Of a DNA stretch of 35,838 nucleotides, positions 33,304-35,838 are shown piece after piece (positions within the stretch are counted from its first letter, which is position 1; each line of letters begins with the position of its first letter). Origin of the DNA: Planctomycetota bacterium (GTDB taxonomy: Bacteria; Planctomycetota; Planctomycetia; Planctomycetales; Planctomycetaceae). The DNA is taken from the NCBI GenBank assembly GCA_030836185.1, contig JAURQH010000092.1:1-35838 (forward strand). The letters run 5' to 3'. Below the pieces are notes generated by a model. The model was given only the letters and a program-made list of their open reading frames with translations. It was not told the DNA's origin and ran no database searches. Both the position numbers and the translations under genes were made by a program.

Positions 33304-34710
33304 ATGTTCACCCGCCAACAACTTGACGATATCCGCGTGACGGTAATGGGGCTCGGCCGATTCGGCGGAGGCACCGGCGTCATTCGTTTTCTGGTCAATC
33401 AGGGCGCTCGGGTCACTGTCACCGACTTGAAGCCAGCCGACGATCTCGCCGACTCACTCGACTTGATTTCCGATCTGAAACTTGAAGCCGTCCATCTTGG
33501 CGGGCATCACGAACAGGAATTCACAGATACCGACCTGTTGATCGTCAATCCTGCGGTCCCTCGTGATAGCGAGTGGTTACAACTAGCGATAGATGCCAAT
33601 GTTCCTCTTTCTTCGGAAATTGGACTGTTCCTGCAATTCAATCCCGCCAATGTCATTGGAGTAACCGGCAGCAATGGCAAGTCAACGACGACCGCACTGA
33701 TACATCATCTCCTGAAAGAAGCCGGCATCAAAGCACATTTGGGAGGCAATATCGGCGGCAGCCTCTTGAATTCTCTGGATGAGATTGAATCCTCTGATTG
33801 GGTCGTTCTGGAGCTTTCGAGTTTTCAATTGGCGGCACTCGATCAAATGTTCTGCAGCCCACGCATTGCCGTCATCACCAACTTCACTCCCAATCACCTT
33901 GACTGGCACGGTTCGTTAGAAGATTATCGTCGCGCGAAACAGACAGTCCTCCGCTGGCAATGCTCGACGGGACATGCCGTTCTCCCCTTGGAAGATCCGC
34001 ATGTTTCGCATTGGCCCGTCCACTCAGACCCGATCTGGTTTGCATTGAAAGACACCGGCGGACGTGGCGTCTATCAATCCGATTGCGGTCAACAAATCAT
34101 TTACAGAACGAAAAACAACGAATCCCGCTGGGAAGTCACCGAACTGAACCACCTCCCCGGCGAACACAATCTGCGCAACATCCTCGCAGCATGTGCGACG
34201 GCCCTTTCTGCCGGAGTCCCCGGTGAGACGATCAATCAATCTCTTAGCACATTCAAACCATTGCCTCATCGGCTTGAATATGTGGGAGAGTTCGCCGGTC
34301 GTCGATTTTTCAATGACTCGATCTCCACAACTCCCGAATCGACCATCGCCGCATTGGATGCGTTCCATGAACCGATTGTCCTGCTCGCGGGTGGCTACGA
34401 CAAACAAGTCGATCTGACCCCAATGTCGGCAAGGATTGCGGAAAAGACAAAAGCCGTGTCACTGATGGGACAAACCGGCAATCGTATTTGCGAGCAGATG
34501 AACAAAGCTGCCGCTCCCAAAACGGTCAATTGTGCCGTTCATGAATCGTTCGAAGACGCCTTCCATTGGGCGATGTCTCAATCTTATCCGGGAGACATCG
34601 TGCTTCTCAGCCCCGGCTGCGCCAGTTACGATTGGTTCCAGGACTTCCGCGACCGCGGCGAACAGTTCGTCGATTCCGTCCAACGCTGGGCCTCACACCA
34701 GACGAATTAG
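33304..34710 (+). CDS. murD: UDP-N-acetylmuramoylalanine-D-glutamate ligase
   Basis: A 468-residue Mur ligase adding D-glutamate to UDP-MurNAc-L-Ala in peptidoglycan synthesis, in the cytoplasm. Domain 1 opens with 'VTVMGLGRFGGGTGVIRFL' (UDP-binding Rossmann). The ATP loop GVTGSNGKSTTT lies at 119-130, followed by 'VLELSSFQLAAL', 'ITNFTPNHLDWHGS' (His and Asp), 'LNHLPGEHNLRNILAA' and the domain 3 marker 'FNDSISTTPESTIAAL', which is diagnostic of MurD among Mur ligases. AGGAA lies nine bases before the ATG. The gene stands alone, away from the dcw cluster, but peptidoglycan synthesis genes are known in planctomycetes. Confidence 0.96.
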   Translation: MFTRQQLDDIRVTVMGLGRFGGGTGVIRFLVNQGARVTVTDLKPADDLADSLDLISDLKLEAVHLGGHHEQEFTDTDLLIVNPAVPRDSEWLQLAIDANVPLSSEIGLFLQFNPANVIGVTGSNGKSTTTALIHHLLKEAGIKAHLGGNIGGSLLNSLDEIESSDWVVLELSSFQLAALDQMFCSPRIAVITNFTPNHLDWHGSLEDYRRAKQTVLRWQCSTGHAVLPLEDPHVSHWPVHSDPIWFALKDTGGRGVYQSDCGQQIIYRTKNNESRWEVTELNHLPGEHNLRNILAACATALSAGVPGETINQSLSTFKPLPHRLEYVGEFAGRRFFNDSISTTPESTIAALDAFHEPIVLLAGGYDKQVDLTPMSARIAEKTKAVSLMGQTGNRICEQMNKAAAPKTVNCAVHESFEDAFHWAMSQSYPGDIVLLSPGCASYDWFQDFRDRGEQFVDSVQRWASHQTN

Positions 34711-34805
34711 TGTCATAGCTGATTCTTGGGAAACATTTTGTTAATCCGAATTATCCTTGTCGTTTTTGCATACGGACATTTTATTGAGCGGTTGTAAGAA
34801 GCAAG

Positions 34806-35060
34806 ATGATTGAAATCAATCTCAAAATAATTCGGGACGTTTTTGACAAGGTCCTGTCTGGTGAGATGTCCAGAGAACAAGCATCAGCGCAAGCTTATCA
34901 ATGGATGGAAGCTGCGGATTATGACAGGCTGCTCTACAGACCAGAGACAGATGAAGATAAGATATGGCAATGTATCTTATGGGTCCTCGGAATTGATTTA
35001 TTAGATAGCCCTACGACATACCTCCATTGCGAAGAAGATATCATCGACGCGCGACCATGA
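34806..35060 (+). CDS. small hypothetical protein, immunity-protein-like size and composition
   Basis: An 84-residue acidic cytoplasmic protein that I do not recognise. It is compact, helix-rich and contains several Trp and Tyr ('AQAYQWMEAADYDRLLYRPETDEDKIWQCILWVLGIDLLDSP', then 'YLHCEEDIID'). This resembles small immunity proteins of polymorphic toxin systems in size and charge, but no toxin gene is in the window, so the likeness is only suggestive. Its base composition seems more AT-rich than its neighbours. Preceded by a 95-base gap after murD; the ribosome site is weak. A GC-rich hairpin (35104-35126) follows. Confidence 0.55.
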   Translation: MIEINLKIIRDVFDKVLSGEMSREQASAQAYQWMEAADYDRLLYRPETDEDKIWQCILWVLGIDLLDSPTTYLHCEEDIIDARP

Positions 35061-35103
35061 ATCTGGAATATTAGCAAAAAGCATTTCTTCTAGCGCAGGG
35101 TGG

Positions 35104-35126
35104 CCCGGTCAGTTTCATTGGCCGGG
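35104..35126 (+). terminator. GC-rich hairpin after the 84-residue gene
   Basis: CCCGG...CCGGG closes a 23-base hairpin that extends inward through a T-G wobble, C-G and A-T pair to about eight base pairs, leaving a small loop. It lies 44 bases after the stop at 35060. It lacks a U-tract (TGACAAAG follows), so it may be a transcript-end stabiliser or a factor-dependent terminator. Confidence 0.45.
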
Positions 35127-35233
35127 TGACAAAGTCACAAGATGACTCGTCATGATCATGCAGTTGTGTGACAAACGTGGCAAACACAATTTGTAACCGC
35201 ATGAGGATTCTTCTTGTCGCCCGAACGGCCATG

Positions 35234-35252
35234 ACAGATCTTCTCGATCTGT
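35234..35252 (+). terminator. hairpin with T-tract, possible terminator
   Basis: ACAGATC (35234-35240), loop TTCTC, then GATCTGT (35246-35252), followed by TTTATC. A 7-base stem with a short U-tract is a modest intrinsic terminator for a plus-strand transcript. It may be part of the larger structured cluster rather than a gene-end signal. Confidence 0.4.
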
Positions 35253-35658
35253 TTTATCAGCGTGCTCCGCGGTGAAACCATTCACGTTCAATTACCGGGG
35301 GCTTCCGCTTCACGGAGCACCCGCCGCCACCCCAAATATATAATTTCATTCGTTTGATTCGAGTCATTCGTGGTGAATTCTTTTTATTTGTCAGGCACAG
35401 CCTGCGATACACAGCATCCAATTCACCGGCTCCCGATTTGCCAATTCGGTTGGAATGGTTCTATTGATGAAACAAGCGAATGAACATCGAATCGAGTTGT
35501 CGGGTTACGACTCGCTTTGCTCGGCTAACCCGACCTACCGTTTTTCTTTTCTTCGTGTTTCTCTACGGATTTGCGTCATAAAACTGATCCTTCAAACTGC
35601 TCTTGCTAATTCGTTCGCACCAGAGTTAGCGTTCGTGGTTCGTTGAAATCTTTGAGCC

Positions 35659-35674
35659 GCTTGCGCTAGCAAGC
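35659..35674. repeat. short palindromic element
   Basis: GCTTGC, a four-base centre GCTA, then GCAAGC. It is a 6-base stem with a tetraloop, of the kind found scattered as REP-like units between genes. Only one copy is visible in this window. Confidence 0.35.
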
Positions 35675-35810
35675 AGGGGACGTTGACACTGATTCAGCCA
35701 GGGCAATCGCATGATATTTCGGCTTGGAAGTTGCATGGTTTGAAGAGTTCACACGTGAGGCCAGGGACTGCCTCGGAATACTCAAAACCCACTTCCGAGG
35801 AACCGTTGTC

Positions 35811-35838
35811 ATGCTTACAAAACCGCCTGCCATTTTCA
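35811..35838 (+). CDS. start of a gene truncated by the window edge
   Basis: An ATG at 35811 has GAGGAA eight bases upstream, a good ribosome site, and the frame runs open to the window edge (nine codons, opening MLTKPPAIF). The first residues give no clue to the product. It would be transcribed from the right part of the non-coding region. Confidence 0.45.

Follow-up and report, generated by a model that had tools for sequence, protein, structure and literature searches.

The window, a stretch of 35,838 nucleotides, is the whole of contig C73 of a 5.16-Mb draft genome. Towards its right end lie a murD-like Mur ligase gene (33304–34710, + strand; PF08245, PF02875 and PF21799) and an 84-amino-acid open reading frame (ORF; 34806–35060) with no Pfam or NCBIfam match, followed by the hairpin cluster analysed here. 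The last feature is the end of an insertion sequence of the ISAs1 family with the start of its transposase (35699–35838, + strand), cut by the contig end and 98–100% identical to C69, C24 and C53; the transposase of the C24 copy matches NF033564 with 389 bits. A BLAST search of 35060–35420 against the same genome returns 45 matches at E ≤ 10, which fall into two separate blocks, A (approximately 35092–35224) and B (approximately 35247–35385). Separate searches of pieces confirm this split, and much of 35498–35699 is repeated too. Most of the interval 35098–35699 is made up, as a mosaic, of repeats that are dispersed in this genome, here called modules A–D, with 21 (A), 27 (B), 14 (C) and 30 (D) distinct sites, counted over the extracted genome stretches rather than over the whole genome. 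It is a non-coding patchwork of short palindromic DNA repeats, not one structure.

An earlier, sequence-only reading of the cluster had described five inverted repeats, and all five can be read directly from the letters where it placed them. Among them are a T-tailed repeat, ACAGATC/GATCTGT with a T run (35234–35255, + strand), the hairpin GTGAA-ACCA-TTCAC (35272–35285, + strand) and a pair of long-range arms, GTGCTCC (35262–35268) and the complementary GGAGCAC (35314–35320), spanning 35262–35320 on the + strand. The same reading held that there is more structure here than spacer needs, which is borne out for 35095–35335 as a whole. This 241-nt segment folds with −94 kcal/mol on the + strand, as opposed to −73.2 (s.d. 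4.5) in 200 dinucleotide shuffles (z −4.66), and with z −4.21 on the − strand; no shuffle is as stable on either strand. Pieces folded separately as DNA (the A copy on each strand, the junction 35222–35286, the B hairpin and 35250–35325) reach z values between −2.1 and −2.9, equalled by 2 to 7 of 200 shuffles, and two pieces outside the cluster give −0.55 (35337–35470) and +0.35 (34711–34805). The structure of the cluster is real and above chance as a whole, but it is split between two different dispersed repeats.

Module A (35098–35221, + strand), delimited by covariance model R1, by alignment A1 and by identity to a copy on C50, is laid out as a REPIN, that is, two inverted REP units, of which the right one is truncated. 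The left unit starts with the foot GGGTGGC (35098–35104, + strand), common to most A copies, as is the GTGG inside it (35100–35103) directly before the hairpin that starts at 35104; similar feet stand at the flanks of genes for REP-associated tyrosine transposases (RAYTs) in relatives. The foot leads into a GC-rich hairpin 1 (CCCGGTCA/TGGCCGGG, 35104–35126, + strand) and then hairpin 2 (GTGACAAAGTCAC, 35126–35138, + strand), both with pairing conserved among copies, and into the left REPIN arm (35137–35154, + strand), which is 83% complementary to the right arm (35200–35217, + strand) in the inverted repeat I2. Full A copies measure approximately 150 bp, from GGGTGGC to its complement, and each half has one hairpin beside its foot and another of the type GTGACGAAGTCAC, together with an arm CAAGATGA..TCATCATG that pairs with its counterpart in the opposite half. 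The window copy is without the right terminal hairpin and GGACGTGCCACCC, both present in L002 and L006; its GTCGC runs directly into CCGAACGG, where L002 and L006 have approximately 30 more bases before CCAA. The suggestion that the cluster includes a remnant fits this loss.

The genome contains many dispersed copies of module A, with 16 BLAST matches at E ≤ 1e-3 and at least 29 matches to model R1 at E ≤ 0.001, where the best 30 candidates were scored and some copies are counted on both strands. Within the window, R1 matches a single place, on both strands, at 114.6 bits (E 7e-30; this copy is among the 12 used to build R1), and the copy is 82% identical to C50:263–388. Alignment A1 comprises 12 of 13 delimited copies, with L077:18403–18526 left out. 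Standard pairs account for 87.0% of the cells over its 37 pairs, as opposed to 25–46% when the partners are slid, a control that favours the helices because they were picked from the sequences before counting. Ten pairs are changed on both sides, a number reached by 9 of 500 shuffles; neither the covariation score nor the percentage paired is reached by any of the 500, and further pair types are no more numerous than in shuffles, of which 354 of 500 have as many. Hairpin 1 is paired in 93.7% of cells in the copies that hold it, with two pairs changed on both sides, and hairpin 2 in 96.7% over the 12 copies, with three such pairs. The REPIN arms, helices 3 and 4, are paired in 84.4% and 81.7% of cells over the 12 copies, and only 1 of the 14 long-range pairs is changed on both sides, so that most two-sided changes lie in the small hairpins. 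RNAalifold, applied to the 12 copies, predicts hairpin 2 alone (5 pairs); the other helices were named from the sequences and counted afterwards.

The Y1 transposase family (PF01797) has six matches in the genome. The gene of one of them, at C12:14921–15469 (L077:9921–10469), encodes a protein of 182 amino acids that scores 109.9 bits against the RAYT model NF047646 (cut-off 80) and 28.9 bits against the IS200 model NF033573, below the cut-off of 55. Read by eye, a left A half lies before the start of this gene and a right A half after its stop. The right flank aligns with the A copy at L077:10794–10944 with a score of 98 (best of 200 shuffles 33), and the left flank with four A copies (two in L077, one each in L012 and L002) with scores of 38–42 (best shuffle 28–32) and with L006 at 32 (best shuffle 31). 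The window copy itself gives a modest score against the left flank (41 versus 35 in the best shuffle) and, being truncated on the right, 30 versus 36 in the best shuffle against the right flank; its putative membership in the family of this RAYT rests on the other A copies. With many copies in the genome and an element that matches the flanks of a RAYT gene, the idea of a repeated mobile palindromic element, one of three offered by the sequence-only reading, fits well. Behind the C12 gene (L077:10472–11060), the 5′ part of a gene, which we take to be DNA-3-methyladenine-glycosylase-like, is duplicated, and a full A copy lies between the partial and the complete gene.

RAYT or Y1 genes at C23:41737–42216, at C23:47888–48397 and on C82 are flanked by other tagged hairpins and lie between TTGGGTGGCACTGGCGG..., TTGGGTGGCTGGGGACG... 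and GTAGGGCAGGGG..., respectively, and the complement of each; C76 holds a decayed RAYT between A-like halves, and C27 a RAYT fragment beside one A-like half. On C103 (L080:1200–2160), a Y1 transposase gene has on each side a copy of a longer repeat, AACCGCACGCTGGCGCG... to ...CAGCCGCAGGGCG, the two in direct orientation, in contrast to the inverted flanks of the other Y1 genes.

Matches to the RAYT in named records come from metagenome-assembled genomes of Planctomycetota, two of them Planctomycetaceae, with a weak match in Hyphomonas. Model R1 was run on 99 genomes of relatives at E ≤ 0.001 with stricter filters, scoring up to 30 candidates in each. Fifty of these genomes have a RAYT match at E ≤ 1e-10, and 30 of the 50 contain A-like elements, compared with 7 of the remaining 49 (Fisher p 3e-6; as the genomes are related, this and the following p values are too small and overstate the evidence). 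With the RAYT cut at 1e-40, chosen after the list of matches had been seen, the counts are 22 of 26 versus 15 of 73 (p 1e-8), or 19 of 23 versus 15 of 73 (p 1e-7) once the three genomes of the genus are removed. Against this link, A-like matches also occur in seven genomes that lack any RAYT match, and G004, whose only RAYT match is weak, has 23 of them.

The layout of module A recurs at several RAYT genes of relatives. Of 30 RAYT loci returned, 24 entered a test for inverted flanks (L117 and L122–L126, partial or distant matches, were left out), and 13 of these exceed all 200 shuffles. The arm at 11 of the 13 starts with GGGTGGC, GGGTAGC or a sequence one letter off, followed by two hairpins and mostly then by CAAG; the letters of the hairpins differ between genera, while the plan is kept. 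The remaining two are L116 and the C12 locus of the genome itself, where the inverted match is unrelated to the REP, and because the test matched unrelated sequence there, the link between the C12 RAYT and module A rests on the half elements seen at the flanks together with the flank alignments. Five of the 11 loci that fail the test have strong direct repeats (scores 63–98), and two of the 11, L103 and L105, run into contig ends. A further 26 RAYT or Y1 genes from this and other genomes, a selection of the matches rather than every match found, have inverted flanks that beat all shuffles in 23 cases. By reading, GGTG[G/C]C is present in the arm of 19 of these 23 supported loci, as GGTGCC in 12 of them, and a scripted search counted 8 of the 23 with GT[AG]G no more than 14 letters from the arm start.

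To the right of module A, modules B, C and D are further dispersed repeats, B and C with feet that look REP-like. Module B (35247–35385, + strand) consists of 9-nt periodic stretches around a hairpin that lies on the − strand (35299–35322) after a GGGTGGC (35332–35326), the same REP-like foot as in A. In alignment A2, which comprises the window, 19 of 20 B copies (L056 left out) and the related genome G002, this hairpin is paired in 89.9% of cells over the 21 sequences; three of its pairs carry changes on both sides, and each measure is equalled by 11 to 15 of 500 shuffles. In most aligned copies, periodic stretches (for example ATCCGCGTGATCCGCGGT and ATTCGTTTGATTCGAGTCATTCGTGGT) lie on either side of the hairpin; those of the window are at 35247–35275 and 35345–35375. 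Module C (35538–35499, − strand) is a GTAG-tagged hairpin of canonical REP form, GTAG-GTCGGGTT...AACCCGAC. Among the RAYT loci searched, no RAYT was found between B or C copies, and the sole C match at E ≤ 1e-3 lies approximately 1.3 kb beyond the C12 RAYT. Module D (35551–35699, + strand) is 84% identical to C15:112685–112831, and the insertion sequence end follows it at 35699.

The locus differs between genomes of the genus. The murD protein of G002 is 95% identical to that of the window and that of G001 81%. At the same place in G002, modules B, C and D are 85%, 94% and 80% identical at aligned positions (D over 120 of 155), with an extra stretch between C and D, and identity is 92% over the part of the murD end that was compared. 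The A stretch is less conserved than murD, with 68% identity over 85 of 130 aligned A positions. At this locus of G002, model R1 gives no A match; the stretch in place of A has CGCAGGGTGGC and GACGTACCACCC as its ends but a different interior. From its ends, this stretch may be a rearranged A, or possibly another element. In G001, the murD frame ends 5 bp from a convergent 377-amino-acid ORF, and none of the repeats matches at the locus. With the repeats absent in G001 and A altered or replaced in G002, the intergenic stretch differs among three genomes of the genus. A search for the empty site of another A copy, C12:8898–9043, gave scattered matches in G001 and G002 and no clean site. Copies of A are mostly extragenic: of 17 copies, a single one has more than 80% of its length within an ORF of at least 150 amino acids, as opposed to 50% of random places in the same stretches.

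Three other explanations of the cluster were weighed. The sequence-only reading had proposed that arms at 35262–35276 pair either locally or at a distance, giving two alternative folds, and one could read the cluster as a structured non-coding RNA that switches between them, a case that we consider highly improbable. The predicted folding is strong, on both strands alike, and both pairings are present in the letters, as GTGAA (35272–35276) can pair with TTCAC at 35281–35285 or at 35309–35313; both helices also exceed their slid versions in cells paired, which is expected as the structure was drawn from one of the sequences. Against shuffles, however, the GTGCTCC/GGAGCAC helix is paired in 70.2% of cells versus 71.2%, and GTGAA/TTCAC in 66.0% versus 67.7%, over the 21 aligned B sequences, so that both look like chance matches in the window copy, and G002 breaks both helices, carrying GTCATCC/GGAGCGC and GTAAA. 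The T-tailed hairpin, at the A/B junction, is absent from the other aligned B copies and from G002. By these comparisons, three of the five inverted repeats are specific to the window copy, and as none of the three is conserved, the alternative folds are left without support; the covariation that the earlier reading had looked to is seen in the A hairpins and the B hairpin, and the long-range and GTGAA/TTCAC pairs do no better than shuffles. Rfam 15 gives no match at gathering score in the window, nor is there a tRNA or tmRNA in it. With alternative pairings at shuffle level, no such Rfam match, and copies that are dispersed and transposase-linked, we rejected the non-coding RNA reading.

A role at gene 3′ ends is unlikely, although it has some evidence in its favour. 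The hairpins would be kept here as terminators or mRNA stabilizers of murD and the small ORF, and mobility would belong to their past. ORFs end towards A in 13 of 15 cases on the 5′ side and 9 of 12 on the 3′ side of 17 A copies (a different set of 17 from that of the overlap test), and REPs have been reported mainly downstream of coding regions (PMC3733652). These directions show a tendency of A copies to sit between gene ends and do not give A itself an orientation preference, and intergenic tolerance explains the position equally well; moreover, murD of G001, a member of this genus, has none of the repeats next to it, and A is less conserved than murD in the comparison with G002. A doubtful proposal, with a minor but appreciable chance of being correct, is that the copies of A arose when one old intergenic mosaic was duplicated, and not by transposition of single REPINs. 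Module pairs within 700 nt keep the same order and orientation in 9 of 9 cases for A–D, 8 of 8 for A–C, 6 of 6 for C–D and 14 of 16 for B–D, and window positions 35095–35698 align with C84 over their whole length at 65% identity. Yet A–B (4 of 6) and B–C (3 of 5) pairs within 700 nt show no rule, several A copies are without B nearby and the reverse, and mosaic duplication alone does not give A ends in common with RAYT flanks. At C73, C84, C34, C9, C7 and C19, the modules tend to follow each other in a set order and orientation, with A ahead of C and D and B ahead of D; this could reflect duplication of an old mosaic or oriented insertion.

Our verdict on the whole stretch is a REPIN/REP mosaic. 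Very probably it is a mosaic of intergenic miniature mobile palindromes, with a REPIN of the C12 RAYT family as its left part. We observe dispersed copies, covarying hairpins, a RAYT gene between A halves and a joint distribution across genomes, as well as an extragenic position and a locus that differs in three genomes; on the first four of these, module A is most likely a REPIN, and the window copy most likely a worn remnant of this known kind of miniature mobile element. The family at 35098–35221 would belong to the 182-amino-acid RAYT on C12, with each unit made of a GGGTGGC foot and two small hairpins. By analogy with published work on other RAYTs, a REP in single-stranded form would fold into its hairpins, the RAYT would bind a hairpin and cut at the GTGG foot, and the excised unit would be pasted elsewhere, whether in the past or still at present; short REPINs without a gene would be carried in trans.

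The hairpin cluster becomes an identified element with a transposase partner, and annotators should not call it an RNA gene. The analysis adds a Planctomycete lineage with several coexisting RAYT/REP pairs, in which the plan is the same across genera although the hairpin letters vary, and which offers natural material for studying RAYT–REP co-evolution; the recurring order of repeats in the mosaics poses a small puzzle. One speculative generalization, which we think is probably wrong as a whole but worth stating, is that the REP used by RAYTs of this Planctomycete family has two hairpins and a GGTG[G/C]C foot, and that their different REP families insert next to each other in fixed polarity, A before C or D and B before D. 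If true, one REP family would act as an oriented landing site for another, and mosaics would be built stepwise.

REPINs and RAYTs are already described (PMC3116915, PMC2817692, PMC3733652, PMC6006769). Among the matches listed in a search for literature that joins RAYT or REP with Planctomycetes, no title is on Planctomycete REPs in particular. On this basis, we take module A as an addition to these systems. The REPINs of Pseudomonas fluorescens SBW25 are REP doublets that form hairpins and go with a RAYT (PMC3116915). Module A is likewise made of two inverted REP units around a less conserved spacer, is extragenic and multi-copy, and shares its ends with the sequences that flank a RAYT gene of its genome. 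It differs from them in having two hairpins in a row in each unit (GGGTGGC, hairpin 1, hairpin 2, CAAGA), in its letters, which are unlike the SBW25 REP letters compared, and in copies that number at least in the tens, with the best 30 candidates scored in the model search.

GTAG-tagged REPs and TIR-flanked tyrosine transposases (TIRYT) have been reported across prokaryotes including Planctomycetes, and R. baltica has numerous tyrosine transposases flanked by repeats (PMC3733652). Module C has the GTAG foot of those REPs, and, as here, that paper describes tyrosine transposase genes between long inverted repeats, some of them ‘double palindromic’. GGGTGGC does not occur at the start of a word in the main text of that paper, and identity with a Planctomycete repeat in its figures or supplements is possible. 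As opposed to the IS200/IS605 insertion sequences, with which it shares a Y1 transposase domain (PF01797) and flanking hairpins, the C12 protein exceeds the cut-off of the RAYT model and stays below that of the IS200 model. The subclasses of TnpA-REP have GT[AG]G feet (PMC6006769). Unlike these, 12 of the 23 supported arms here have GGTGCC before the hairpin, outside strict GT[AG]G; like them, module A has a GTGG foot 0–2 nt before its hairpin, and the genome has several RAYTs, each with its own REP family.
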